Below, one piece after another: positions 1 through 60,238 of a DNA stretch of 64,000 nucleotides. A model generated the notes under the pieces. It saw only the letters and a list, made by a program, of their open reading frames with translations. It ran no database searches and was not told the origin of the DNA. Each line of letters starts with the position of its first letter. The first letter of the stretch is position 1. Made by a program: the position numbers and the translations under genes. This stretch comes from Apus apus (Eukaryota > Chordata > Aves > Apodiformes > Apodidae), in contig NC_067312.1 in NCBI RefSeq assembly GCF_020740795.1, positions 43,300,405 to 43,364,404 on the forward strand, read 5' to 3'.

Positions 1-3014
<3,014 letters not shown>

Positions 3015-3146
3015 GGCGCTGGGCTCGGCGCGGCCCGGGGGGCAGCGCTTCCTGCGGCGGCCGCAGCCCCGCGGCGGCCATTGGCTCGGCGGGCGCGGGG
3101 CCCGCCCGACGTGCCGCCCGGCGATTGGGGGCACCGCCGGTGGCAC

Positions 3147-3262
3147 CGCCCCGCCCCGCCCCGCGCCCACCCCGCCCCGCCCCGCCCCGCGCCGCCCCGC
3201 CCCGCCCCGTGCCCGCCCCGCCCAGCGCCCGCTCCGTCCCTACCCCGCCCCTCCCCGCACCG
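3147..3262. repeat. C-rich (CCCCG)n low-complexity tract
   Basis: This stretch is almost purely C and G on the plus strand, built from variants of CCCCGCCCCG. It forms repeated GC boxes for HINT1 on the opposite strand and has G-quadruplex potential on the minus strand. Stop-free reading through it gives spurious proline/arginine-rich ORFs. Confidence 0.85.
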
Positions 3263-3300
3263 CACCGCCCCGCGCCGCGCGCTCCGCGTGCTCATAGAGG

Positions 3301-5200
3301 CATAGGGGAGGCTGCGGCCGTCAGGAATGTTGGTTGTTGGTGCTTCAAATCCAGCGCTGTGGGTCTTCTTTGGACTCTATCCTGCAGCCGAAGGATTAGC
3401 GCCGGGGGAAAAACCAACCAACCAACCAACCAACAACAAAGCCACAACACACAAACAAACGAGTAACAACAAAGCTTCGTTTTATAAGCTTCAGGCTTCA
3501 AATATGTTTAATCTGTTTTCCCTCAGGTTTTGTCTATGAAGGTTTTCATATCGACTTTTATACGTATTTGCCCTGTGACAAAAATCTTGCAAGGGAGATA
3601 ACTCTTGAGGGAGGCCGGGAATAAACACTACTAAGTGGTTTAAAACCACAGCGGTTCCACATTTGATCACCTGGACTTAGTACAAAAAGAGCATAATTTG
3701 TCATACACATCTAGTAATAACTCTGCAATTATGTTTTGAGATACAGTAAATAAAGCTCAGACAAAGCCTGGGATGATACTATGATTCTATGATTCTATGA
3801 TTCTATGATACTCTGGTCCTCACTTGATGGTACAGTATTAAAATACTTTGACATGTATACATCCTACAGATAGTATTGGAGTGTGACAACTAAAACCAGG
3901 GTGGAACTGGTGCTTCAGGGGCATATTTGCTTTCTCTGCTCGTTTACTCATGGTTGTTAAGCAAATATATGAATCATTTTATTGCCCTATTTTCTCAAGA
4001 ATTAAACATATTTTGTTTATAATAGCTAGAAAGACTCAGGAACAGTTGAACATACACATACTTATTCAGGATCCGTATGTAGATGTTAGTGTTCTTTAAG
4101 TAGTTCTATGGGCTGCCATGGAGTCAGACTAGAAAGTGTATTTCTTATGTTAGGGCAGACATAAAAAGCCTATTTGAGAAGTTTTCTCTGAAAAGGCAAA
4201 GGCATTTTTTTCCCATACAGCTGACATCAACATATATTTTTCTCATCATGTAAATGGCAATTTTTAAATTATTTTATAATAATAAAATAATATCTATAAT
4301 AATACATGTAATATATATAATAATGTTATATAAGTGCAGAAACAAGGAACTGTAACAGCAACTTTTCATTTGAAATGGTGAAAAATAATCTGAGAAAAGG
4401 GAAAACACCTTGAGAAAGTAAGAATTTGTAACTGCCACTGGCTGTCCTAACTGCAGTCTGGCAAAATAAAAATTGAGCAAACTTCATCATCTATTAGCTG
4501 TTACAGGTGGAAAACAGAGATTAAAAGCACTCGTTGGCTGTTCGAAGTGGTGGTGTCCTACACCCTCTTCTGTCTCTATAATATAAAAACTTTTTTTTTT
4601 TTTTTTTTTTTCCTAAAATGAAGCCTCCCTCTCTGAGAACATCCCATGCTGCACGTACTTCCCATTTCCTAAACAGGCTGAATTCTCTGCAGAAACTTTC
4701 TACAAGGTCTTGGACTCCCACTGGGAACACGGGGCTGGTTCCAGACTCCATGCCACAGATCGCCTTGGAAGTGCAACTGTTACTTCATGTTCCCTCTGGA
4801 ACTGCTGCTGCCGTCGGCTCGGTCTGTCCCCCCACCTCCAGGATGAGTATGTCCTCTACTCTGGGGTGGTTTGACCCCCTCTGAAATCCAGCTCACTTGA
4901 TACTGGTATTATGTATCCGTACAAGTAATCTGTTATAATATATCTGCTGTTTTATTGTTGATAAGTTGCTTCACTAACGTTAAGTTTGTAGTAACCCACA
5001 ATAGTAAAATCCTACTTATTTGTTGCTGTTATTGGTTGTGGCAATAAAGTTGATTGTTGTTTATGATTGATCGTTGCTGTTAGTTATTGCTGATATTAAT
5101 TTGTAATAGCTTGAGATATATATTTGCTTAATAATCATAGGTACCCTTGCTAGTGATTATTTTGTGATTATTTGTAATGAAGTGGAGAAATGTAGAGGAT
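3301..5200. other. Intergenic, AT-rich, simple repeats only
   Basis: No gene is recognised. There is an (AACC)n tract at about 3412-3432, an ATGATTCT octamer run at about 3779-3810 that resembles an isolated CR1 3' tail, and a poly(T) run of about 22 at 4590-4612. The patch 4615-4890 is slightly GC-richer and has an 88-codon ORF without family resemblance. Confidence 0.6.
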
Positions 5201-6830
5201 GTCTTGGTGTATTACAGAATCCTGTGAGCCCATGATGGTGATCTCCATAGAGCCACGGGCTGGGCCACCCTTTATGGTGCCAAATCACAAGTCCTGAGAG
5301 GCTAACAGGGGGCTCTCAGCTATGGGCTGGTGTCATGTCCCACTCAGAAGAGGGAGACAGACTCAGACTCAGAAGTGACTTAGATTTGAAAATCTGTAAC
5401 AAAGTGGACAACGGTAAAAAAAGTCTCAAAATACATACACAAGCATTTATTAATCTTTCACAGTGCATTAATTGGACTCACTATAATTGACAATGACATA
5501 TAACAGATTCTAGCAAGTGGTATGATGTGCTTTGTGTTACTGTACATATGTGTTCCAGCTGCGCCACTTGGGTACCATCATGGTACACCTTGCATTACTT
5601 GATGATTTTAGGGAGGGGAAGAGAGCGGGAGAGAGGGACAGAGGGAGGAGAAGAAAAGTTAAGAGGGATAGGGAGATCACCATTCCGGGATCCAGCTTTG
5701 GGCCAGCCAACTCGGGCATTCACTGTGGAGAGACAGAGCCTGAGCTTTGTTGTGTGTCCTGTTTATTGGCTGCAGCGCTTCTGGAACTTTCACTCTTTTA
5801 ATTACCAGAACATTTATTATTGCTTTGGTTGTCTCCACTTTTCTAAGTAAACTAACACACATGCTCCTTGCAGGTGTGGGGTCCAAGTTTTTTCTGTCCT
5901 GTATTGGGTCAGTGGTCACAATCTCCCCCTGCTGTCCTCACCTTGTCCCCAAAACTGCAGGTTTTGCTGACTTCATGCTTTATGGCACAATGTTTCCTTC
6001 GTTATCTCTCAAGATTCCCCCTCAGAAGACTAATGTTTTTTAAAGTTTGTACAGTGACACAGAGTCTTGTAACTCTTGAAGGCTGTTATATAGGCTTCTG
6101 GTATTCCTCAACAATCTTTCCTTTGTCATCAACATGCCCCCACCCTCCCCACACCTCCTCTTCCAGAGAGGTTTCGCTTCTGGGAAAAGTTTCTGTAACT
6201 GTTTTGAGTTACCCACTGGTAGAACCCAGGGACTTTCCACTCCCTTGCACTTGCCAAGTTCCCTCTCTTATCCTTCTCAGCAAACTGTTGTTTTGGGGGA
6301 CTGCAAGTCAATAGGAGTGTTAGGACCACCGCCTGCGTAGCCCTGTCCCTTCGTTTTGTCTCCTATAACTGGTCAGGTCAGGAAGGCTTATTAGTGCACT
6401 CAAGGCCCTGACATCTATTACCAAAGGTAGTTCTGGTGTCTGAATCTGTTATTTCTTTAGGTCACCTTTATAAAGAACCATTTACTTTTTGCTTTACCCA
6501 CAGTTCTGCTGGATTCATGTGTACCAACCTCAGTAGGCATCAAAACATGGTCATTGTTTAAATTTGGTATTTGTTCTTTAGCCCCAGCCAGAATATTCTC
6601 TCCAAGAGAAAAGGTGTTCAAACAAAATACGATCAGTGTTGACAAATAATCCTTTATTATCTCAGTACCGGCATTTTTTAGAAAAAGGAATTGAAGTTTA
6701 CTTCTGGGAAATGACAGGCAGCAGCGTAAAATACAATGTGGGTCACAAATTAATGGCTTTCCAATCACCTCTTTGAAACAACGGCCTTTTTCTTCAGAAG
6801 GAAATGGCTAAAATACATTTTTTTCTAACA
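5200..6830. other. Unclassified; possible degenerate retroviral/LTR remnant
   Basis: No host exon is visible. The texture resembles an old, minus-oriented LTR-retrovirus remnant: TTTATT (AATAAA on the minus strand) at several places between 5440 and 5820, a purine-only-like tract at 5610-5675, and a TGTCATGTCC motif near 5332 that could be a terminus. No target-site duplication or coding domain was found, so this is a weak suggestion only. Confidence 0.25.
5606..5680 (+). repeat. Polypurine (GGGA/GAGA)n tract
   Basis: About 75 bases are almost entirely A and G on the plus strand, made of irregular GGGA, GAGA and GGAG units. Such tracts can form triplex DNA; in an LTR element a polypurine tract primes plus-strand synthesis, but no flanking LTR boundary supports that here. 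Confidence 0.6.
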
Positions 6831-6923
6831 CCACGCGCTGGTGTCGGGCTCTGAGGGGGTGATCTCATGCAGGAGAACCTTGACCATGGGGCAGCCCACT
6901 GCCTGCACCGCAGCCCTCCCAGC

Positions 6924-9900
6924 GCAGCAGGGGCAGAGGGGCAGGAGCAGGGGCAGCAGGGGCAGCAGGGCAGGGGCGGCAGGGGCAGGGGCAGCAGGGG
7001 CAGCAGGGCAGGGGCAGCAGGGGCAGGGGCAGCGGGGCAGGGGCAGCAGGGGCAGGGGCAGGGGCAGCAGGGGCAGCAGGGCAGGGGCAGCAGGGGCAGC
7101 AGGGCAGGGGCAGCAGGGCAGGGGCAGCAGGGGCAGCAGGGGCGGCAGGGGCAGCAGGGGCAGCAGGGGCAGCAGGGGCAGCAGGGCAGGGGCAGCAGGT
7201 GCAGGGGCAGCAGGTGCAGGGGCAGCAGGGGCGGCAGGGGCAGCAGGGCAGGGGCAGCAGGTGCAGGGGCAGCAGGTGCAGGGGCAGCAGGGGCAGCAGG
7301 GGCAGCAGGGGCAGCAGGGCAGGGGCAGCAGGTGCAGGGGCAGCAGGGGCAGCAGGGGCAGCAGGGGCAGGGGCAGCAGAGGCAGCAGGGGCAGCAGGGG
7401 CAGCAGGGGCAGGGGCAGCAGGGGCAGCAGGGGCAGCAGGGGCAGCAGGGCAGGGGCAGCAGGGGCAGAAGGGCAGGGGCAGCAGGGCAGGGGCAGCAGG
7501 TGCAGGGGCAGCAGGGGCAGCAGGTGCAGGGGCAGCAGGGCAGGGGCAGCAGGTGCAGGGGCAGCAGGGGCAGCAGGGCAGCAGGGGCAGCAGGGGCAGC
7601 AGGGGCAGGGGCAGCAGGGGCAGCAGGGGCAGCAGGTGCAGGGGCAGCAGGGCAGGGGCAGCAGGTGCAGGGGCAGCAGGTGCAGGGGCAGCAGGGGCAG
7701 CAGGTGCAGGGGCAGCAGGGCAGGGGCAGCAGGTGCAGGGGCAGCAGGGGCAGGGGCAGCAGGGGCAGCAGGGGCAGCAGGGCAGGGGCAGCAGGGGCTG
7801 CAGGGGCAGCAGGTGCAGGGGCAGCAGGGGCGGCAGGGGCAGCACGTGCAGGGGCAGCAGGGCAGGGGCAGCAGGGGCTGCAGGGGCAGCAGGTGCAGGG
7901 GCAGCAGGGGCAGGGGCAGCAGGGGCGGCAGGGGCAGCAGGTGCAGGGGCAGCAGGGGCAGCAGGGGCAGCAGGTGCAGGGGCAGCAGGGGCGGCAGGGG
8001 CAGCAGGGGCAGCAGGGCAGGGGCAGCAGGGCAGCAGGTGCAGCAGGTGCAGGGGCAGCAGGGCAGGGGCAGCAGGGGCAGGGGCAGCGGGGCAGGGGCG
8101 GCAGGGGCAGGGGCAGCAGGGGCAGCAGGGCAGGGGCAGCAGGGGCAGCAGGGCAGGGGCAGCAGGGCAGGGGCAGCAGGGGCAGGGGCAGCGGGGCAGG
8201 GGCAGCAGGGGCAGGGGCAGGGGCAGCAGGGGCAGCAGGGCAGGGGCAGCAGGGGCAGCAGGGCAGGGGCAGCAGGGCAGGGGCAGCAGGGGCGGCAGGG
8301 GCAGCAGGGGCAGCAGGGGCAGCAGGGCAGGGGCAGCAGGTGCAGGGGCAGCAGGTGCAGGGGCAGCAGGTGCAGGGGCAGCAGGGGCGGCAGGGGCAGC
8401 AGGGCAGGGGCAGCAGGTGCAGGGGCAGCAGGTGCAGGGGCAGCAGGGGCAGCAGGGGCAGCAGGGGCAGCAGGGGCAGCAGGGGCAGGGGCAGCAGGGG
8501 CAGCAGGTGCAGGGGCAGCAGGTGCAGGGGCAGCAGGGGCAGCAGGGGCAGCAGGGGCAGCAGGGGCAGCACGGGCAGCAGGGGCAGCAGGGCAGGGGCA
8601 GCAGGTGCAGGGGCAGCAGGGGCAGCAGGGGCAGCAGGGCAGGGGCAGCAGGGGCAGCAGGTGCAGGGGCAGCAGGTGCAGGGGCAGCAGGGGCAGCAGG
8701 GGCAGCAGGGGCAGCAGGGGCAGCAGGGCAGGGGCAGCAGGGGCAGCAGGGGCAGCAGGTGCAGGGGCAGCAGGGCAGGGGCAGCAGGGCAGGGGCAGCA
8801 GGGGCAGCAGGTGCAGGGGCAGCAGGTGCAGGGGCAGCAGGGGCAGCAGGGGCAGCAGGGCAGGGGCAGCAGGTGCAGGGGCAGCAGGGGCAGCACGGGC
8901 AGGGGCAGCAGGGGCAGCAGGGGCAGCAGGGCAGGGGCAGCAGGGGCAGCAGGGGCAGCAGGGGCAGCAGGTGCAGGGGCAGCAGGTGCAGGGGCAGCAG
9001 GGGCAGCAGGGGCAGCAGGGGCAGCAGGGCAGGGGCAGCAGGGGCAGCAGGGGCAGCAGGTGCAGGGGCAGCAGGGCAGGGGCAGCAGGGCAGGGGCAGC
9101 AGGGGCAGCAGGTGCAGGGGCAGCAGGTGCAGGGGCAGCAGGGGCAGCAGGGGCAGCAGGGCAGGGGCAGCAGGTGCAGGGGCAGCAGGGGCAGCAGGGG
9201 CAGGGGCAGCAGGGGCAGCAGGGGCAGCAGGGCAGGGGCAGCAGGGGCAGCAGGGGCAGCAGGGGCAGGGGCAGCAGGGGCAGCAGGGGCAGCAGGGGCA
9301 GCAGGGGCAGCAGGGGCAGCAGGGCATGGGCAGCAGGGCAGGCGCAGCAGATGCAGGGGCAGCAGGGGCAGCAGGTGCAGGGGCAGCAGGGGCAGCAGGT
9401 GCAGGGGCAGCAGGGGCAGCATGGCAGCAGGTGCAGCAGGTGCAGGGGCAGCAGGGGCGGCAGGGGCAGCAGGGGCAGCAGGGCAGGGGCAGCAGGGCAG
9501 GGGCAGCAGGTGCAGGGGCAGCAGGGGCAGCAGGGGCAGGAGCAGCAGGGCAGGGGCAGCAGGGGCGGCAGGGGCAGCACGTGCAGGGGCAGCAGGGCAG
9601 GGGCAGCAGGGGCTGCAGGGGCAGCAGGTGCAGGGGCAGCAGGGGCAGGGGCAGCAGGGGCAGGGGCAGCAGGGGCGGCAGGGGCAGCAGGTGCAGGGGC
9701 AGCAGGGGCAGCAGGGGCAGCAGGTGCAGGGGCAGCAGGGGCGGCAGGGGCAGCAGGGGCAGCAGGGGCAGCAGGGGCGGCAGGGGCAGCAGGGCAGGGG
9801 CAGCAGGGCAGGGGCAGCAGGTGCAGGGGCAGCAGGGGCAGCAGGGGCAGCAGGGGCAGCAGGGCAGGGGCAGCAGGAGCAGCAGGGGTAGCAGGGGCGG

Positions 9901-12775
9901 CAGGGGCAGCAGGGCAGGGGCAGCAGGGCAGGGGCAGCAGGTGCAGGGGCGGCAGGGGCGGCAGGGGCAGCAGGGCAGGGGCAGCAGGGGCAGCAGGGGC
10001 AGCAGGGGCAGCACGGGCAGCAGGTGCAGGGGCAGCAGGGGCGGCAGGGGCAGCAGGGGCAGCAGGGCAGGGGCAGCAGGTGCAGGGGCAGCAGGGGCGG
10101 CAGGTGCAGGGGCAGCAGGGGCGGCAGGGGCAGCAGGGGCAGCAGGGCAGGGGCAGCAGGGGCAGCAGGTGCAGGGGCAGCAGGGGCTGCAGGGGCAGCA
10201 GGGGCAGCAGGGGCGGCAGGGGCGGCAGGGGCAGCAGGTGCAGGGGCAGCAGGGGCTGCAGGGGCAGCAGGGGCAGGGGCAGCAGGGGCAGCAGGGGCAG
10301 CAGGGGCAGCAGGGGCAGGGGCAGCAGGGGCAGCAGGGGCAGGGGCAGCAGGGGCGGCAGGGGCAGCAGGGGCAGCAGGGGCGGCAGGGGCAGCAGGGGC
10401 AGCAGGGGCAGCAGGGGCAGGGGCAGCAGGGGCAGCAGGGGCAGCAGGGGCAGCAGGGGCAGCAGGGCAGGGGCAGCAGGGCAGGGGCAGCAGGTGCAGG
10501 GGCAGCAGGGGCAGCAGGTGCAGGGGCAGCGGGGCAGGGGCAGCAGGTGCAGGGGCAGCAGGTGCAGGGGCAGCAGGGGCGGCAGGGGCGGCAGGGGCAG
10601 CAGGGCAGGGGCAGCAGGGCAGGGGCAGCAGGTGCAGGGGCAGCAGGGGCAGCAGGGGCAGGGGCAGCAGGGCAGGGGCAGCAGGTGCAGGGGCAGCAGG
10701 GGCAGGGGCAGCAGGGGCAGGGGCAGCAGGGCAGGGGCAGCAGGTGCAGGGGCGGCAGGGGCGGCAGGGGCAGCAGGTGCAGGGGCAGCAGGGGCGGCAG
10801 GGGCAGCAGGGGCAGCAGGGGCAGCAGGGCAGGGGCAGCAGGGGCAGCAGGTGCAGGGGCAGCAGGTGCAGGGGCAGCAGGGGCTGCAGGGGCAGCAGGG
10901 GCAGCAGGGGCAGCAGGGGCAGCAGGGGCAGCAGGGGCAGGGGCAGCAGGTGCAGGGGCAGCAGGGGCGGCAGGGGCAGCAGGGGCAGCAGGGGCAGCAG
11001 GGCAGGGGCAGCAGGGGCAGCAGGTGCAGGGGCAGCAGGTGCAGGGGTAGCAGGGGCTGCAGGGGCAGCAGGTGCAGGGGCAGCAGGGGCAGCAGGGGCA
11101 GCAGGGGCAGCAGGGGCAGGGGCAGCAGGGGCTGCAGGGGCAGCAGGGGCAGGGGCAGCAGGGGCGACAGGGGCAGCAGGGGCAGCAGGGGCAGCAGGGG
11201 CAGCAGGGGCAGGGGCAGCAGGGGCAGCAGGGGCTGCAGGGGCAGCAGGGGCAGGGGCAGCAGGGGCAGCAGGGGCAGCAGGGGCAGCAGGGCAGGGGCA
11301 GCAGGGGCAGCAGGGGCAGCAGGGGCAGCAGGGGCGGCAGGGGCGGCAGGGGCGGCAGGGGCAGGGGCAGCAGGGGCTGCAGGGGCAGCAGGTGCAGGGG
11401 CAGCAGGGGCAGCAGGGGCAGCAGTGGCAGGAGGGCAGGGGCAGCAGGGGCAGCAGGGGCAGCAGGGGCAGCAGGGGCAGCAGGGGCAGCAGGGGCGGCA
11501 GGGGCGGCAGGGGCAGCAGGGGCAGCAGGGGCAGGGGCAGCAGGGCAGGGGCAGCAGGTGCAGGGGCGGCAGGGGCGGCAGGGGCAGCAGGTGCAGGGGC
11601 AGCAGGGGCGGCAGGGGCAGCAGGGGCAGCAGGGGCAGCAGGGGCAGCAGGGGCAGCAGGGCAGGGGCAGCAGGGGCAGCAGGTGCAGGGGCAGCAGGTG
11701 CAGGGGCAGCAGGGGCGGCAGGGGCAGCAGGGGCAGCAGGGCAGGGGCAGCAGGGCAGGGGCAGCAGGGCAGGGGCAGCAGGTGCAGGGGCAGCAGGGGC
11801 GGCAGGTGCAGGGGCAGCAGGGCAGGGGCAGCAGGTGCAGGGGCAGCAGGGGCAGGGGCAGCAGGGGCAGGGGCAGCAGGGGCAGGGGCGGCAGGGGCGG
11901 CAGGGGCAGCAGGTGCAGGGGCAGCAGGGGCGGCAGGGGCAGCAGGGGCAGCAGGGGCAGCAGGGGCAGCAGGGCAGGGGCAGCAGGGGCAGCAGGTGCA
12001 GGGGCAGCAGGTGCAGGGGCAGCAGGGGCTGCAGGGGCAGCAGGTGCAGGGGCAGCAGGGGCAGCAGGGGCAGCAGGGGCAGCAGGGGCAGCAGGGGCAG
12101 CAGGGGCAGCAGGGGCAGGGGCAGCAGGTGCAGGGGCAGCAGGGGCGGCAGGGGCAGCAGGGGCAGCAGGGGCAGCAGGGGCAGCAGGGGCAGCAGGGGC
12201 AGCAGGGCAGGGGCAGCAGGGGCAGCAGGTGCAGGGGCAGCAGGTGCAGGGGCAGCAGGTGCAGGGGCAGCAGGGGCTGCAGGGGCAGCAGGTGCAGGGG
12301 CAGCAGGTGCAGGGGCAGCAGGGGCTGCAGGGGCAGCAGGTGCAGGGGCAGCAGGGGCAGCAGGGGCAGCAGGGGCAGGGGCAGCAGGGGCTGCAGGGGC
12401 AGCAGGGGCAGGGGCAGCAGGGGCGACAGGGGCAGCAGGGGCAGCAGGGGCAGGGGCAGCAGGGGCAGGGGCAGCAGGGGCTGCAGGGGCAGCAGGGGCA
12501 GCAGGGCAGGGGCAGCAGGGGCAGCAGGGGCAGCAGGGGCAGCAGGGGCGGCAGGGGCGGCAGGGGCGGCAGGGGCAGGGGCAGCAGGGGCTGCAGGGGC
12601 AGCAGGTGCAGGGGCAGCAGGGGCAGCAGGGGCAGGAGGGCAGGGGCAGCAGGTGCAGGGGCAGCAGGGGCAGCAGGGGCAGGAGGGCAGGGGCAGCAGG
12701 GGCAGCAGGGGCAGCAGGGGCGGCAGGGGCAGCAGGGGCAGCAGGGGCAGCAGGGGCAGCAGGGCAGGGGCAGCA
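6924..12775 (+). repeat. 5.85-kb G-rich minisatellite, core unit GGGGCAGCA
   Basis: This is a continuous tandem array of roughly 600 units of the 9-mer GGGGCAGCA on the plus strand. Common variants are GGGGCGGCA, GGGGCTGCA and composite units with an extra GGGCA (14 bp), GGTGCA (15 bp) or GGGGCA (15 bp). The plus strand has about five G for every two C. Rare variants act as landmarks: CACGTG at 7843 and 9578, GGGGCGACA at 11161 and 12420, and stop-creating GGGGTAGCA at about 9885 and 11045. The 5- and 14-bp pieces shift reading frame repeatedly, so the peptide type changes along every frame; this and the lack of any unique domain show it is not coding. It lies between divergent HINT1 and LYRM7 and stops about 110 bp before the LYRM7 ATG. 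Confidence 0.97.
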
Positions 12776-12780
12776 AGGGC

Positions 12781-12892
12781 GGCGGAGTTTCCCGTCACGG
12801 AGGGCGGCGAAGGGGAAGCTGCGTGTGTGTTCTCGTCACTTCCGGCTGCCTGCCTTCCCGCCGCTCGGGGCCGGAAGCGGGCGGCTGCCGCC
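12781..12892 (+). promoter_or_regulatory. LYRM7: LYRM7 core promoter and 5' UTR with two ETS sites
   Basis: Only about 110 unique bases separate the minisatellite from the LYRM7 start codon. They contain CACTTCCGG at 12837-12845 and CCGGAAGCGG at 12871-12880, both ETS-family (GABPA/NRF-2 type) sites in opposite orientation. GABPA sites of this kind are typical of nuclear genes for mitochondrial proteins. No TATA box is visible. The start codon context GCCGCCATGG is a perfect Kozak match. The transcription start is inferred to fall within this segment. Confidence 0.75.
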
Positions 12893-12910
12893 ATGGCGAG
12901 CCGCCGGCAG
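12893..12910 (+). CDS. LYRM7: LYRM7 coding exon 1 (6 codons)
   Basis: ATG in a perfect Kozak context is followed by ASRRQ and the splice donor GTGAGC. The exon ends in phase 0. A six-codon first exon is also what the human gene has, although the residues differ. Confidence 0.92.
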
Positions 12911-15900
12911 GTGAGCTGCGGCGCATGCGCGGCCGGGCGGGCGGCGGTGGCGGCGGCCTCTCCTGCCGGGCCCTGCGCCGCCTTTTCTCTGTGCGGCCGC
13001 GTCGCCGCCGTGTCTCGTGAGGCTGCCGGGGGGTCTGGCGCCTCCCTGGCTCCCGACTGAGTTGGAGCCGCGGCCTCAGGGCAGGGAGGGAAGGCCCCGT
13101 GTGAGGCCTTGGGCCCCCGCCCCCCTCCGGCGCCGCGTCGCAGCGGCAGCGGGTGCCCCTGAGTTCCCCGCTTGGCCTCGGTGAGGCGGGGAGTCATGCG
13201 TGCTGCTGAGCGCTCCGGAGCCGAGGGGAACGCTGCCGCCGGCCGGGTGCTGTCACCCCGTGCCCGGCGCTGCGCCGTGCCCGGCGGGGCTGGGGCTGCG
13301 GGCCGTGCGAGCAGCGCCGACCGGGGGGCTGTGCCCCCCGCAATCCCAATTTGCAGCCTTAGAGCGTCAGTAGAAACTAGACACAAACTGCATGCTTAGG
13401 GAGCTTTTTGGCTGGAGGGTAGACACCTTTTTTTCTCGCGGTTCCTAGTGTGTAAAGTGTCAACAGAGGGCAGCTGTTTGGCCAAAGAAGGACACAAAAC
13501 TAGGTGATAGAAAGTAGGGTTTTGCATACAAAGGCCGTTCTGGGAAAAGGAAACAAAGATATGACAATCAAGTAGGGGTTAAAATACAATGAGAGAATGA
13601 ATTGTGATGGGGAGACAGCAACAAAAAATAAAGACAGAATTATTTAAGCCTTTCATCGTTGTAAAATGTGGTGAAGTGAGGTTTGAATTTGTTCATATTT
13701 GTAAGTTGCCCTTTAATAGTACTAAAGTGGTGTTAATATTTTGTTAAAGTAGTACTGAACTGGAAGGTTGCTTGTTCTTACTAGTTTATGTCTTCCTAAA
13801 AACTGTCTTTCTCTAGATGTGGATGAATTATCTCAAGGTGTAGCCAACTGACAAGCTGAGCAGAGGCTGAGAAGTTAGCTTGAAAACCTATAAATATCTT
13901 GACACCTTTTGGAAGTAGTAGGTTTCAGAGATGCTTACCATTTTTCTGTCATTGGCAGATTTAAAGCAGAGGTGACCTGCCAGAATATTTTTATTGACCT
14001 TTTAGATGATGGTATTGCTTGCATCTCCAGCTTACAGGTACAGAGCAGGCTGATACAGAAGATGGTCACTTTTCGGTTTCATCCATGTGTTTCCTCTGCA
14101 TCTTTCTAATATTTAGTATTAATTGTGAGACAACATTCCAAGAGTTATCATGAGTACCTGGTATTGTGTCTTCTAGTATGTCAAAACACACTAGGAAGTA
14201 CTAGAAATAACTTCAAAAGGTTATCTCCTTATCAAGATAATATTTTTTTTTTGTCTTCTCAGAAGTTCTTGTCAGTCTCTGACAAACCCCCAGAAAGTTT
14301 GAGAAGGACTTGAGAATTTCTGTAACAAATAGCTTGAATCACATGACCGTGAACTGTGATTATCGGAAGGGTTTTGCTTTAGATACTGAGGTTTGTCATC
14401 TCTGCATTGTAAATCCTAAGTTTTTGAGTACTTTTAGTGAAATTTTTATTTGCTGATCTGGCAGTGATCTTTAGGGAAGGACTTTGCTTTGTGTTGCATT
14501 TGCTACATCACCTGCAGAAGATTTATGACCAGGTATTACACAGAGACATGAAAAATAATAGTTAAACTATTTAATGCACAGCTTAAGATCCACTTGTTTC
14601 ACACTGGCTTTGTAAATGTGGGAATACCTTAGATATGTATGTTTCTATCTTCTTTTGTAATCAGAGAGTAACCAGTGGATGTGCTCTTGATATAGTTAGT
14701 CCCTTTGGGTATCTTGACTGCTAGAGTTATTCTGATTCTGTTGGCTTTATTTGGTATTGGTACAATAGATATATTTCTGTCCACGTATTTTCAGGATTAT
14801 ATTCCTGTCATGGCAAATTATTTTTAAGAGTGTTGTACTCCCCAGCATCTTAAATTTAACTGAAACATCTAGAACTGTCTAGGTTTTTTATTTTTCACAT
14901 CTGCTTGGCTGCAGGGATCAGGAATTGAGATTAAGCATCTTAGATACTGATTCCATGCCAAATCCTGTACTAAATGGAAAGAACATCAAAGCTCAATCAG
15001 AACAAAGAACACGCTTTAATAGTGACATGTTCATTTTAACTAAGAAACCTGTGAACAAATGAGGTAATTTTGTTGATGTTGTATTGACAGGTTTTGAAGC
15101 TTTTTAAATTATTACACAGAACCCGGCAAGAAGTTTTTAAAAATGATACCAGAGCCCTTGAAGGTGAGATACTTTTTGTGTGTGGTGAATGCTTACCTAT
15201 TTTTCTGTGAAACTTTCTTCTCTAAATACACAGACCAAGAGTTCTTACCATAATCTTCCTTTAAATTACTCCTTTCCACATGTTCTAAGTAATCATTGGG
15301 AGAACTTGTGTGTCCATAACCAGATATCCTTTAATGTGAAACAAAAAACTGGTTGTTAGACCCAAGTATGGAAGCCATCTTTTCTAAGGAAGACATCACT
15401 TTTTGGAACCTTGGTAATCTTTCTGGGATTTATTTATTTATTTGTTTGTTTGTTTGTTTAATTTTTTTTCTTCAGTCCAGCCAAAGCATGTTTAAGTGTA
15501 CCAAGCATTTGAGTTGATGCAGGAGGGTTTGAACTAGATGATCTTTAAGGTCCCTTGCAACCTAAACCATTCTGTGACTCTTAAAGCGTTTTTTATACAG
15601 TTGCTCCTCAGGGGATAGATACTTTATTACTAAACCAGTTTTTAATAGTGACTTCTGTACCTTAGTTATTTTGAAGATGCAGAATGATAAATGGACTATC
15701 ATATTTTATTAATATACTGGTCATTTAAAATATGACATCACCTGAATTACATGGCAATCTTGTATTGCAGACAGAGTGCACCACAGAAGTGCTATGAAGG
15801 ATTTGGAATTCTGATCTTTGAAGCAGTAACAAAGACAATATACAATTTTTTGTTCACACTTCAGTTTTTTTGTTTATTTAGCTGCAAGACAAAAGATAAA

Positions 15901-18900
15901 TGAAGAATTCAAAAATAACCAAGATGAGACATCTGAAGAGAAGATAAATGAGGTACTTCCTGTTTTTGCTGTGTTTTCCACTTTGTATAAAAATACTTAA
16001 ATAGGAGTGTTTTACTTAAAAAATCTCTAAGTACATTTTAAGACATTGTGAGAGCCAGATTATCTTTTATTTATTTATTTATTTATTTAAAAAAAAAAAT
16101 ATATTAATACCTCCATTGCTATTAATAGTTTATTATAGCATTTTTCACATACAAAAAATCCATAGGGAGAAAGTGTCTTCTGGTAGTTGAATATGCTTAT
16201 TTTGAAGCTTGTAATAGAATTATGGAAAAAACCTGGTTTACTATTTTCATGTTAATTTTTGTGTATTTTGCTCATAATATCTGTCTGAGCTGTGGTCACT
16301 TTACCTAGCACAGAAAGAAAGAGAAATTTATCTGCTCCCTTACTGGCAAACATGAGAAATTAATTTGATTCCTGATCAAAATGAGGCAGCATCTTCTGTG
16401 GGAGGCTAAAAGCAGTAAAACAGTCAAGTGATCATGACTGTTGTAATGCAGAGGTAATAATTATACTACTTGGTTTTTCTGCTGCTTCTTTCCTCATGGT
16501 ATGCTAAAAGGAGTAGAATAGTCTGTTAACTCACTATGTGTTGCTCAGTTGTTATTGTAACACTTTTTACTAAGTCATTTTTTTGAAAGTTACTGAAGCC
16601 TGAAATAAACCTCCTATATTTTAGATATTTTAGTTCTTAACATCCATACAGAGTGAATAATTTGAGCCTTGTCATTTAGCCTTTTAACAGACTGTATTTA
16701 CATTGTCACTGAACATCATTTGGCAGAAGGTGCCCCTATCTGTCCATTGCAGGAGTAAATCTAAAGCTTTGCATCATACCAGTCACTGGACAATAACATA
16801 AATAGTTCTGAGCATTTAGTTAGGACTTGCTAGCATTTCTGCTTGTTATCTGGCACCTAAAGTAATACGTGTGTTCCTGGTATCTGATCTGTTAAATTGT
16901 ATGTTATTTTTGGTTTAGATATATAGAAAAATACTCACTGTAATTTTAAAATCTATATTTGTTAGGAGTGGCAATCTACAAATTACACATGGAACTCTTT
17001 AATGTGGGTTAATTGTTTAAATATGTCAGTGGAAGAAATTCTGGACTTCCATCACAAACACAGAATATTGGAATTTCATAGCAGCTGTCATATTTATCAT
17101 ATATATTTGTGTGTTTATATAAATATATCTATACACACTGAGTGTACTCAGATGCAGAGGAACTGAGTCACATTATATACAGGACTTGTGAGAATTTGGA
17201 CACTTGCTTGCATAAACACAAGAGTGTTAGTGTTTTGCTTTGGACAGCTGCTAAAAAAAAGTGAACGCTGACCAATTAAATGTGCATTACTTTGCCAGAA
17301 GAGAAAGATGCAGTGTCTGCTGACATGACATCAAATTCTTAGTTAATAGAGTAACCTAAGGAGGTAGGAATAACTGTCTGCAGTATTAGAATGTGACATG
17401 TGGCAACTAAATCTGCTGCAGCATTTTATTCAGTCGGGAGTGAACTTCTGAAGTTGCCTTTGTTATCTCTGCTTCATGTGATTTGGCTTGTTTTGTGTAG
17501 CAGCCTCAGAGAAAATGGCAGAATTCCTGTAACATAAATCTGAAGTGGAAGGACTGCTTGAGGAGCATGCCAATGGGCATTCAGTAGGCAGAACTGGAGG
17601 GGACCTAGTTTGAACCTGTGAAAGGGAAAGGGGGGAGTTGAAGTTCAGTGTAGCTGCCAAGTCTTGAGCTCTAACTCTTGCAAAGATACAGTTCTTTTGG
17701 CACACATTGCTTCCTAGTGTCAGCTTGTCTCCCAGAGTGTCTCACTTGTGCAGTTTCATTTATTTCTGGCGTAGGTATCATGCAAACAAGTATTAGGCTT
17801 CTCTTAATCGTTCAGCAAACGTAGCAAAGTTTGATTTTGCTGATCACCTAGGCATTTTGCCAAATATTAATGCCTCTACTAATCTTTACATAGTGCCTTA
17901 TTCCTGTACTGTTTTTCCATGAAGCTTTAGCATCCATAATTTTTTTCATGTTTTGCCCTTATTTTTGTATCTTTATTTCAAGAGTAGTAATGTTAATGGA
18001 AACAGATTGCCCTTTCACTCAGGATAGTCAGATGTTGTTGGGGCATCCACCAGTGTTTGTAATTGTTTAAACCTAGTTACTTCTTCTGGTAGTTACATTC
18101 TACCTTATTCATTTGCAGTTTTAATTTGGTGTATAGATGTTAGACTGCCATGTGTGACTGAGAAGTTTCCTTCCTGTCAACCTGTAAGTTATTCTAGGAT
18201 CCCCAAAGTAAAAGCTATGTATAGATAGTATATAACTAACTGAATAATAGAACTGACTGGCTTTATTATTTGAATAGTTGTCTGCTATGGAAAATACCTT
18301 CAGGAATAATTGCATATAATTTAAATCACTCAGTGTTGTTTTTTTTTTTAATTCCTTTTTACTAGCTTCTCAAAATAGCTTCAGATGTTGAAGTGATTCT
18401 CAGAACTTCTGTTATTCAGGCAGTTCACACAGATTCCAACAAAATACGTGAGTAAAGCTGCATGCTAAAAAGATGTAGTTCAGTAAATAAATGTAAAATT
18501 TGAAAACTAAGTGAAGGAATGGAGAGGGCAAAAGTCAGTCTGTCTGTCATATCTATGCCCAAAGCTTTAATTTAACCCTGTTGACTAATATCACTCCACC
18601 TAGAACAGGTGGAGGTTTCAGAGGTACAAAGTTTCTACACAAATAGTTTGAAATATGAAGGCTGGTAGAAAAGAGGCAGTGACTGTATTTAGTACCTTCA
18701 GGAACTGTGGGACTCAGTCCTTTGGGAATGCCTGGAGCAAAGACAACTTTGTTTTGTTAGAGGACGAAAAGACTAGGGAGCATTGGAACAGATGTGACAT
18801 GCATGAATCTGTGGGACCTGATGTTATGCTCCCATGGATGGTGAGGGAGCTGGCTGGTGTAATTGCAAGGTGACTCTCAATCATCTCTGAAAGGGGATGG

Positions 18901-21900
18901 TGATTAGATGAATTGCCTGAGGACTGGCAAATGTCACTTTCCTTTTCAAGAAGGGCAAGAGGGTTAATCTAGGAAACTGGTCAGCCTCACGATGATCCAT
19001 GGGAATGTGGTTGAGCCAACCCTAGAAGCTGTTTTCCTGTGTTCTAAGAGCAGAATTGGGACTGGGAGTAGTCAGCAATTATTTACAAAGGCGAGATCTT
19101 CTCTGATCAATCTAATACCCTTTTACAGTGAATTAACTTAATTCAGCAAACAGGGCGAGACCAGTGGTACTTGTGCATTTTGACTGTAGCAGAGCTTTAA
19201 TGATGTGTCCTTTAAAAATCTCTATAAATGAAAACGAAATTGCCTTCCCTGCCCACCCTGCCAAGGGAAGCTATAAGGGGAATAAGGAAGAGAGACTTAC
19301 AGGTTGGAAATTGAAACTGGAACAAGTTTACTCTTAACACGGAAAAGGGAGTAACATGTGGGGTGAGGAACAATATATGAACTTATATACAGGTAGGTAT
19401 ATGCAAAACTGATCTCAGTAATCGCAAGAATAGGTGTGTGGGAGTCCCATGTGGCAAGGCTGTCTTAGGAGAGGAGTCCACGGTGCAGGAAAAGAGGGGC
19501 TGAGCTTCCAATTCTCCTGGCTTTTATAGAGTATGGCAAGAAGTGGGAGGGAATACTGACACCTCTCTGTTCCAACCCTCCCAGGTCCTTCATTGTCCTA
19601 AAGAGCCTGTCTCTCTAGTTCCTTTTGTATGTGTCAACAATTTACTGGGTCCCCTCAAACCATAACAGCGTTTGACCTGCTTACAAATGCGAAGGATGTC
19701 ATTATGCAATCTCTTGCCCTTTTTTTTTGTGTGTGTGTTTGTGTATCTGTTTTGGATAGTTTTAAGCTTTACTTCTTGCTTTGTAAGTGATCTTACTCTA
19801 GTAAAAATGAAACAATAGTCTTGAAACAGCCATCACAGTTTGTATTTTGTGTGTATTTAGAATAATACATTGAAGTGAGACGTGCTTAGTCTTGATATTG
19901 TACTGTATCACCAATTAAAGGATTAGGAGTGCTGAGAAAAGAAATCCAGAGTATCATTATAAAGTTCACAGAGTAAGAATAAGTAATGTAATTTATATTA
20001 TAGTATAATGCATAATAAGAATCAATTGTTTATTTGTCAGCTGGTCACAAGTGGTGTTCCCCAGTGCAGAGTTTTGGGACCACTCCTATTTAACATCTTT
20101 ATTAATGACTTGAATGAGGAGATTGAGAGCACCCTCTGTAAGTCTGCAGACAACACCGAGTTGGGTGGGAGTGTTGATCTGCTTGAGAGTAGGAAGGCTC
20201 TTCAGAGGGACCTGGACAGGTTGGGTCAATGGGCATATGGGCTTCCGCAAGGCCAAGTGCCACATCCTTTGGCTACAACCCCCTGCAACATTACAGGCTT
20301 GGGGAAGAGTGGCTGGAGGCCTTCTCAGCAGAAAGAGACCTGGGGGTGTTTATCAGCAAAAGCCGTGTGTGCAAGGAAATAAAAGGAATTCATTCACTAC
20401 TTCCCCTTCTAAGCATCTAGGTTCATCTGCAGGAAAGGAGGGCTCTGTCAGATGTAACCATTACTTGGGAAGACAAATGCCATCACTGCAAGCGTCCCCC
20501 TTTCCTTCTTCTTTTCCCAGCTCTTATTGCTAAGCACAAAGTGAAACTGTATGAAGTGTCCCTTTTTGCTTTCCTGGCTGTATCCCCTCCTTGTGCATTA
20601 TGATGAAAATACCAAGTGGATCTTCTCACTTTCTTTTGCTTGTTGGCATCTGGGAGCCAGTTTCTGGTTGGAACTTGGCTGTAGGAAATGCCTGTGTATA
20701 TATGGGAATCTGTCTAGGTGGCGCATTAAAAGGATATTAAATTCCAGTACAGCTTTAATTAAGAAGATCTTAAAACCTTTTTGAACCTTAAATCTTTATG
20801 ATGTGGTAACTTCTATAGTGCCAAGAGAATTAGCTCCCTCATTCCTTTTAAGTTATCATCTTGTAGTAAGTGAGAGGATTGGGACAGATGTGTTAACACA
20901 TACACATACACACACCAAAAAAGTGGAAGTGCAGCCCTAAGGTTGCTGCTTGAATTGCTGTTTGTTGGCAAATCAAAATAAGCAACCTCAGTTGGAAAGT
21001 TTACTTCTCAGTGCTTCATCTTAGCTACATGTTTATTTTGGAAACCATAGGTGAAGGTTTAGTTTGTCATAATGGGAAGTATGTTGGCTTATTTGGTAAA
21101 AGGAAAATGTTGTAAAATACTTATATATGTATTTAAATTAGTTTTATGTCCTTGCTTTATCTCAAGTCTTCACCCTCCCTCCGGCCCCAGAAAGGGCTGA
21201 AGTCATCAGTTGCCATGTTGTATGAAAGAAGAGTGGGGAAAAAAGAAACTAGCTAAAATGTTTCAGAAACCTATTGCTGCAGCTAGTTTCCTTCAGTGAG
21301 TTACTGTCAGAATCTTCTGACTCCTGACTTTGTGTATTAAAGCTGATAATACACAACTTAGCCACACCTATTTGGTTTTTTTATATTTATGTATGTAATC
21401 TAGCATGTCTAAAATACTGAAAAGAAGAAGGCAAAAACTTGTCTTGGACAGCGAGAACAAGTATTTTGGCAAGGGGAGCATTCTCCCTAATCAAATGCAG
21501 TTACTGTGTGCTGTCATAGAAGCAGTGCACAGGGCAATCTTACTCTTCAAAAGCAATTTGAGATTCAGTGGTGTATAGTCATGTTGGGATTCACAGGTAA
21601 ATCTTTAAAAAAATAAATTATGCTGAGGTTTTCTTACAAAAGAGAGTATTGTTTCATTTAGGAGCTCATTAGTTTTATTAGACAATTTTTAAAACAATGA
21701 ATTGTTTTAAAAAATGTTTCAGTCCGAGTTATGTTACTTAGTAATATATGGATGTCTCTGTTTCAAACTTTATATCCAATTCTGTTCTTCTTTGGCATTT
21801 CTGTTTCATGTACCTATCTTAGATGTGCAGATCAACATACTTTGTTATGAATTTAGTCACAAGTATTTTATCTAAGAAAAATGCAATTGAAATGTTACTC

Positions 21901-58487: not shown

Positions 58488-58813
58488 ATCATAGAATCAT
58501 TAAGGTTGGAAGGGACCTCAAAGATCACAAAGTTCCAACCCCCCTGCCATGAGCAGGGAGCCCTACCCCTAGACCAGGCCGCACAAAACCTCATCCAACC
58601 TGGCCTTAAAAACCTCCAGGCATGGGGCTTCAACAACCTCCCTGGGCAACCCATTCCAGTTCCTCACCACCCTTGTAGTGAAGTTTCTTCCTAATCTCTA
58701 ACCTAAATTTCCCCTCTCTCAGTTTAAACCCATTACCCCTTGTCCTGTCACTGTCTTCTCTGACGAAGAGCCCCTCCCCAGCTTTCCTGCAGGCCCCTTT
58801 CAAGCACTGGAAG
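58488..58813 (-). mobile_element. CR1 LINE 3' end abutting the CpG island
   Basis: It starts ATCATAGAATCATTAAGGTTG (20 bases of the 3' tail complement) and runs through TTGGAAGGGACCTCAAAGAT and ACCCCTTGTCCTGTCACTG to about 58813. Its 5' truncation point meets the CpG island directly, with no spacer. Confidence 0.93.
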
Positions 58814-58938
58814 GATGACTCCGCCCGCCTCGGAGGACTCTGAGCTCTGGCTTCTCCCGCCTACGACCGGGAGGTCCCACCTCAGGGGGCCCGTTCGCGC
58901 CACCCGGCGCCGCCGCCCCGCGCGCGTGCCCGCCGGGG

Positions 58939-59022
58939 CGCTGCCGCAGCGGGGCCGGCAGGGGGCGCTGCCGCAGCGGGGCCGGCAGGGGGCGCTGCCG
59001 CAGCGGGGCCGGCAGGGGGCGC
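58939..59022 (+). repeat. Three 27-bp tandem repeats with CTCF-like motifs
   Basis: The unit CGCTGCCGCAGCGGGGCCGG plus CAGGGGG is repeated three times, essentially without change. Each copy creates CCGGCAGGGGGCGC (58955-58968, 58982-58995, 59009-59022), which matches the CTCF core consensus CCASYAGRKGGCRS at 13 of 14 positions, all in plus orientation. Confidence 0.85.
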
Positions 59023-59339
59023 AGCGCCGGCGCGGACACGCAGCGGCAGCCGGCTCTGCTGCAGCCAAACCTGCTTTGTCCCCGCCCCGCCCCGGCCTGC
59101 CCAACCCAGCCGGCCCCGCGGAGAGCAGCTGCTCAGCCCGGGGATTCTCTCCCCGCGCCGCCGAGGTCGCCATCTTCACCCTCTCCTCCTCCTCGGAACC
59201 TCCCGGCCGGGCTCGCAGGCGCGGGAGGCGCCTGCGCCGAGCGCCCCGGCTGCGCGTCACGCCGGGCGGCAGCGGCCTCCTCCGCGGCTCTGCCTTCCCC
59301 TCCGCCCCGGCGCGGCGGGAGGGGCGCGGGGCAGCAGGG

Positions 59340-59397
59340 GACGGAGGTGCCGGGGCGCGGCGCGCAGACAAAGGAGCGGGCGCCGCCGTGGGCAGCG
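59340..59397 (+). other. CDC42SE2: Candidate CDC42SE2 non-coding exon 1 (3' end)
   Basis: The segment ends GGGCAGCG before GTGAGTGG, a near-consensus donor within the island. The start is unknown; only the donor edge is supported. Confidence 0.4.
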
Positions 59398-59670
59398 GTG
59401 AGTGGCAGGGGCAGGGCGCGGGGGTCTCCGCTCCCGCCGTCCCGCGGGGAGGGTGCCTGCTGGCGGGCCAGGCTGCGCCGCGGCCGCTGCCTTCCCCGCG
59501 CGGGCGCAGGGGCTCCGGCGGGGGCCGGGCTGCTGGCGGGGCTGCCACCCGAGCCCGCCGGTGCCTCCCGCACCGCAGTCCCCGCGGCCGAGCAGCGGCA
59601 GCGAGCGCTGAGCGAGGTGCCCGGCAGCGGTGGGAGCCGAGACGGGCGCTCCGGGGGAGCCTCCAGCGCC

Positions 59671-59800
59671 GCCGCGGGTGCGGGGCTGGGCAGCGCGGCG
59701 GGTGCGGGGCTGGGCAGCGCGGCGGGAGCGGGGCTGGGCAGAGCGGCGGGTGCGGGGCTGAGCAGCGCGGCGGGAGCGGGGCTGGGCAGCGCGGCGGGCA
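59671..59800 (+). repeat. 24-bp GC-rich tandem repeat, about 5 copies
   Basis: Units of the type GCGGCGGGTGCGGGGCTGGG followed by CAGC repeat about five times with single-base differences. It gives spurious GAGLGSAA-type repeats on the plus strand and PSPAPAAL-type repeats on the minus strand. Confidence 0.85.
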
Positions 59801-60238
59801 CGGCGAGCGGAGCTCGGCAGCCGTCCCGTAGGACTGGCACTCGGACAAAAAGGACGGGAGCGATTAAAAAGACAGTAAGAGGGCTTCTCTTTTTTGTGTT
59901 TGGTTTTTTTTCCCCCCCGTTCCTTGCCAAAGCGTGTGGCGGGAGGAGAGGTGCTGCTGTGAGCAGGTGGGTGGGCAGCGAGAGGCAGAGCAGCGGGCAC
60001 AGGGCGCCGTGCCCGGCCGAGGATGCTGCGGCTCCTCCGGCTGCCCCTGCCCGGGACCCCCTGCCCCTGTGACAGCTGTGGTGGCTCTGTGGCGCATCCC
60101 GAGGGATGAAGTCGTGTTTATCGCCGCTGTTTGAAAATGTAGCGCTTGTCTTCTGGGTTGTTTGGTTTTTAGGCAGCTATTCAGTGAGTACAAGCTTGTG
60201 CTCTTAGTGAAATTATAAATCTTGCTTTCCTACGCCAG

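Follow-up and report, generated by a model that had tools for sequence, protein, structure and literature searches.

What is the large G-rich repeat that lies between HINT1 and LYRM7 in this 64-kb window (the whole stretch of DNA analysed), how did it arise, and does it matter for the gene next to it? The original prediction described a 9-mer array that fills the divergent intergenic space between both genes and ends at position 12775. Analysis of the window with TRF confirmed that a very large minisatellite, rich in G, immediately precedes LYRM7, with an end 5 bp beyond the predicted one.

6924..12780, + strand (the sense strand of LYRM7): G-rich composite minisatellite, 5857 bp (TRF, base composition, units and spacings, G-quadruplex and CpG counts).

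TRF reports periods of 15 bp (384.7 copies) and 24 bp (236.5 copies) over this interval, and a period of 9 bp over 6924-12764 (697 copies, 73% matches, 17% indels). The GC content reaches 78%, with 3309 G and 1248 C on the + strand, and the G-runs are 1 to 4 residues long, none longer, GGGG accounting for 551 of 1347. Parsing of the array yielded 779 tokens of 27 types, including CAGCAGGGG (only 268), CAGGGG (165) and TGCAGGGG (87). The word CAGCA recurs at intervals of 9 bp (187/439), 15 bp (115/439), 14 bp (69/439) or 18 bp (40/439), which together make up 411 of the 439. The array is a mosaic of GGGGCAGCA-like units at these four spacings and no pure 9-mer: the predicted unit stands as the commonest spacing, its uniformity does not. 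Potential G-quadruplexes number 117 non-overlapping motifs with at least three Gs, 74 with four, all on the + strand, and the G4Hunter mean is 1.61. The observed/expected CpG ratio is 0.09, versus 0.90 in the adjoining 12781-13400. With short head-to-tail units, inside the range of about 7-100 bp by which minisatellites are defined, at one locus between flanks that are single copy in the assembly on both sides, the array is a minisatellite.

The position of the array with respect to the two genes is defined by the following features.

12651..13530, no strand: CpG island that spans the start of LYRM7 and extends into the right end of the array.
12781..12892, + strand: presumed core promoter and 5' UTR of LYRM7, 112 bp, single copy in the assembly.
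12893..12910, + strand: coding part of LYRM7 exon 1 (MASRRQ), before gtgagc.
2904..3014, - strand: coding part of HINT1 exon 1, with its ATG at 3014, running leftwards.
3146..3278, no strand: small CCGCC-type array, 133 bp (TRF), which begins upstream of HINT1, 131 bp from the ATG.

The array adjoins LYRM7 only: 112 bp, close to the predicted distance of about 110 bp, separate its end from the LYRM7 ATG at 12893, and the HINT1 ATG is 3.9 kb away. Its placement within or next to the presumed LYRM7 promoter was therefore right, as judged from this distance and from the overlap with the CpG island. LYRM7 is a mitochondrial complex III assembly factor. Its identity here is probable: exons 2 and 3, which we place near 15.1 and 15.9 kb by LYRM7 sequence words, gave no Pfam family match for the former and a weak match to the LYR family for the latter (E 0.002, 18.5 bits, below the cut-off of 24.8). 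The 112 bp that separate the array from the ATG hold two ETS-like words (CTTCCGG at 12839 and CCGGAAG at 12871) and two CGTCA words (12793 and 12834). Since four such words are found there, the core promoter is presumed to lie between the array and LYRM7, and this stretch is probably enough for LYRM7 transcription.

On the other side, HINT1 exon 1 aligns with HINT1 chains of solved structure, at best with E 2.2e-16, and 3.4 kb separate the array from the end of the HINT1 CpG island near 3500. The array is thus away from the HINT1 promoter and, contrary to what had been proposed, occupies 5857 bp of the 9878-bp gap between the two ATGs (59%) instead of filling it. The CCGCC-type array beside HINT1 resembles GC-rich pieces found at numerous sites (87 DNA matches in the assembly, own copy included), among which there is no second HINT1 exon 1. 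A W gametolog of HINT1 had also been predicted; a protein search with exon 1 only found a single match in the assembly, hence no W copy by this exon. At 3773-3809, a ATGATTCT tandem resembles the 3' end of CR1 retrotransposons.

The window is located at 43.3 Mb of a 77.8-Mb contig (C36). Of five DM-domain matches genome-wide, three (one of them partial) fall within 96 kb on this contig, as expected of the DMRT cluster on the avian Z. From this cluster C36 is the Z, in agreement with the predicted Z linkage, and a chicken Z BAC is reported to carry HINT1, CDC42SE2 and LYRM7 (PMC3297585).

The internal order of the array bears on how it was built, and two structures stand out.

6954..12647, no strand: higher-order structure (unit-level self-alignment).
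8687..9196, no strand: longest exact internal duplication, 209 bp, 8687-8895 being identical to 8988-9196 (exact-repeat search).

Internal repetition is beyond chance, as the longest exact repeat in 50 unit shuffles was at most 115 bp. Self-alignment at the unit level pairs 6954-11442 with 8114-12647 at an offset rising from 1160 to 1205 bp, with 405 of 668 columns identical, and scores 170. The maxima reached by 36 control sequences were 18.9 (12 unit shuffles), 48.6 (12 first-order Markov sequences) and 66.3 (12 second-order Markov sequences). The array is built by duplication at several scales, up to the kb scale. No polarity of duplication toward the promoter end was observed: exact 60-bp duplicates cover 0.80-1.00 of all ten bins, with the minimum mid-array.

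We favour, with a probability of roughly 0.7, the view that the array grew in place as a minisatellite, where the CpG-island promoter of LYRM7 borders on the intergenic space. The starting point would have been a short GGGGCAGCA-like tract, of a type seen at the CpG-island edges of several other genes in the genome. Slippage in steps of 9, 14, 15 and 18 bp would have expanded it first, and unequal exchange or conversion of blocks of up to about 1.2 kb later, presumably driven by G-quadruplex-prone DNA in open, recombination-prone promoter chromatin. This mode of growth, as well as a high mutability of the array, is what we infer from its structure. Birds are reported to be devoid of PRDM9, to recombine at promoters and CpG islands, and to have abundant tandem repeats upstream of their genes (PMC10781513). 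Such a recombination pattern is compatible with growth in place, no proof of it. The missing polarity counts against it, as a hotspot model might predict polarity. A mobile or duplicated element is ruled out: the flanks are single copy on both sides, and therefore the array is not a moved element.

For three tandem units of the array type the assembly has 89 matches, of which 86 fall in the LYRM7 array; for two tandem units there are 205, with 178 in the array and 27 outside, at 14 loci (22 listed matches plus 5 in L018, a tally that agrees strand by strand). All 14 loci were inspected, in stretches of 2.0 to 9.5 kb. At six of them TRF finds an array of 100 bp or more around the match (116-357 bp).

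L018:4493-4733 (GRHPR), C36 at 77.6256 Mb, opposite strand: 241-bp array ahead of a GRHPR-like exon 1, with 109 bp between its end and the ATG.
Within L042:1006-1127 (MAPK1): 116-bp array about 490 bp before the MAPK1 ATG.
L043:912-1268 (IFT20): 357-bp array 180 bp after exon 1.
L046: 261-bp array touching a CpG island.
L051, C36 at 21.7 Mb: 298-bp array touching a CpG island.
L041: 330-bp array, CpG island absent in the 2.3 kb examined.

Five of these six arrays (L018, L042, L043, L046 and L051) touch a CpG island, and one of the eight remaining loci (L050) lies within 100 bp of one. Contact with a CpG island, or a position within 100 bp of one, thus characterizes 6 of 7 longer arrays versus 1 of 8 other loci when LYRM7 is included (Fisher p 0.009), and 5 of 6 versus 1 of 8 when it is excluded (p 0.016), for 15 loci chosen by this one unit, with length and distance cut-offs set post hoc and with the LYRM7 CpG island called with slightly different settings than the others. 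Longer arrays of the GGGGCAGCA-like unit are associated with CpG islands. The LYRM7 array, nearly unique in size within the surveyed unit, would then be a roughly 16-fold size outlier of a recurrent kind, namely repeat growth at CpG-island edges. The L041 array, 330 bp long with no CpG island in 2.3 kb, counts against growth at such edges.

GRHPR was named through a 20-residue alignment to solved GRHPR chains (E 0.013). Its array is C-rich on the sense strand and has no unique flank in common with the LYRM7 array; a common origin of the two was rejected, as the gene-side flanks match only shortly, in GC-rich sequence (best 30 bp at 87%). A dispersed satellite DNA, with large arrays at many loci, was likewise rejected, 178 of 205 matches being here and the arrays of the other 14 loci not exceeding 357 bp. 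In addition, a CTTT array some 670 bp long (L042:254-926) is present at the MAPK1 locus. On contig C24, two loci 35 kb apart (L001 at 5.165 Mb and L002 at 5.200 Mb) have 33-bp (3.7-copy) arrays of the unit, that of L001 following a gtgagt splice-like word after an apparent complement-control exon.

Within the window, TRF arrays are found in three of the four CpG islands, those of HINT1 (133 bp), of LYRM7 and at 58.6-60.2 kb (88 and 129 bp); the CpG island at 25.2 kb has no TRF array. The fourth island (58631-60190), which by gene order we presume to be the CDC42SE2 start, holds two GC-rich arrays, a 27-mer in 3.3 copies and a 24-mer in 5.4. In 20 roughly evenly spaced 10-kb stretches of C36, no TRF array longer than 93 bp was detected.

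Whatever its origin, the array may tune LYRM7. A length-dependent regulator comparable to the INS and CSTB promoter VNTRs, with transcription controlled by copy number by way of G-quadruplexes, bound proteins or spacing, is a tentative reading that we consider less likely than not. It would fit the distance of 112 bp to the LYRM7 ATG, the density of G-quadruplex motifs with their bias of G to one strand, and the 89 CAGGTG E-box words, which could form a binding platform. The CSTB 12-mer is named among known promoter repeats, the INS repeat, at 363 bp upstream, folds into G-quadruplexes (PMC11336075), and human VNTRs less than 100 bp from a TSS are reported to be twice as likely to be expression-linked (PMC8024321). 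However, the E-box count reflects one multiplied variant unit, which makes the dinucleotide shuffle (18.8 words) an unfair null. The CTCF core AGRKGGC is absent from both strands of the array, compared with 59 occurrences in shuffles, and therefore an insulator array is rejected by that motif. Moreover, the presumed core promoter is intact and outside the array. Array length probably has at most a modest effect in cis, through G-quadruplexes or the chromatin state beside the core promoter. A broader proposal, which strikes us as unlikely, is that CpG-island edges in birds, on dot and large chromosomes alike, are sites of recurrent G-rich repeat growth and that the LYRM7 array acts as a fast-mutating heritable rheostat, present as one allele in ZW females.

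An assembly artefact, by which the array would have been inflated or collapsed, is very improbable. The assembly comprises 110 contigs for 1.1 Gb, the flanks of the array are single copy, its 27 unit types follow a non-periodic order with unique variants, and its length is below that of typical long reads. Against these points, tandem arrays and G-quadruplex DNA are known assembly hazards (PMC7757076; PMC9516821).

Least probable of all, at a few chances in a hundred, is a transcribed or coding repeat, which would be the terminal exon of a gene on the minus strand or else an antisense RNA that terminates close to the AATAAA around position 6650. A minus-strand frame of 1989 codons does run open through the array and closes in the non-repeat tail, and an AATAAA lies near 6650 on this strand. 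Yet stop words are almost missing from the units, which leaves each of the three minus frames open across the array. A coding repeat is ruled out by 84 changes of reading class and by spacings that are no multiple of 3 in 82 of 439 cases; the array is non-coding. The 32-residue tail of the frame has no Pfam family. The single-copy segment 6640-6923 resembles an mRNA 3' end on the minus strand, with this open tail, a TAG and the AATAAA. As for a structured RNA, Rfam gave no family in window positions 1-20000, and the folding of a 201-nt stretch (z -1.69 on the + strand and -3.67 on the - strand, for structure other than G-quadruplexes) is taken as a property of the repeat.

Growth in place leaves the question of what kind of element this is among known systems. 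The CSTB promoter dodecamer likewise consists of short GC-rich units and immediately precedes its gene. It is small in normal alleles and lowers expression when expanded. A link of this repeat with expression and epilepsy is published (PMC8024321), whereas an effect of the LYRM7 array is a possibility. The INS promoter VNTR shares with it a short G-rich unit with GGGG runs, a location upstream of the core promoter and the ability to form G-quadruplexes (PMC11336075), but has a 14-bp unit 363 bp from the TSS with proven polymorphism and effect, as opposed to a 9/15-bp composite of 5.86 kb with at most predicted ones. Avian sequence stuttering is described as a local, imperfect, GC-rich and hierarchical tandem growth from single-copy flanks, in introns, 190 of 236 of which belong to dot chromosomes and 36 to macrochromosomes (PMC12954441). 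The LYRM7 array shows the same imperfect local clusters, in blocks of tens to hundreds of bases. Unlike the stuttering described in that source, it is intergenic, abuts a promoter and resides on a 77.8-Mb Z contig, and no growth from an exon was seen. The GRHPR, MAPK1 and IFT20 arrays, with the same or a closely related GGGGCAGCA-type unit touching a CpG island, measure 116-357 bp compared with 5857 bp, and at GRHPR the array is on the other strand with respect to the gene. By kind, the LYRM7 array is a promoter-abutting minisatellite with stuttering-like growth, distinguished by its size, its Z location and its strand bias.

The claim that it has no described counterpart was thus too strong for the kind, given the published promoter VNTRs and sequence stuttering and the smaller arrays that this unit forms at further CpG islands of the genome. 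For the LYRM7 locus itself, no description of the array was found in the titles and abstract openings of the papers that literature searches returned. GC-rich promoter sequence of this type is reported to be often absent from older assemblies (PMC9516821), which would explain why the array had escaped notice.

If polymorphic, the array would offer a clean natural test of whether the length of a promoter repeat sets expression, as it combines a kb-scale G-quadruplex array about 110 bp from an ATG with a single-copy mitochondrial gene that is hemizygous in ZW females. The part most worth pursuing is the expansion of one repeat unit at several CpG-island edges, which raises the testable question of whether the promoters of PRDM9-less birds are breeding minisatellites.
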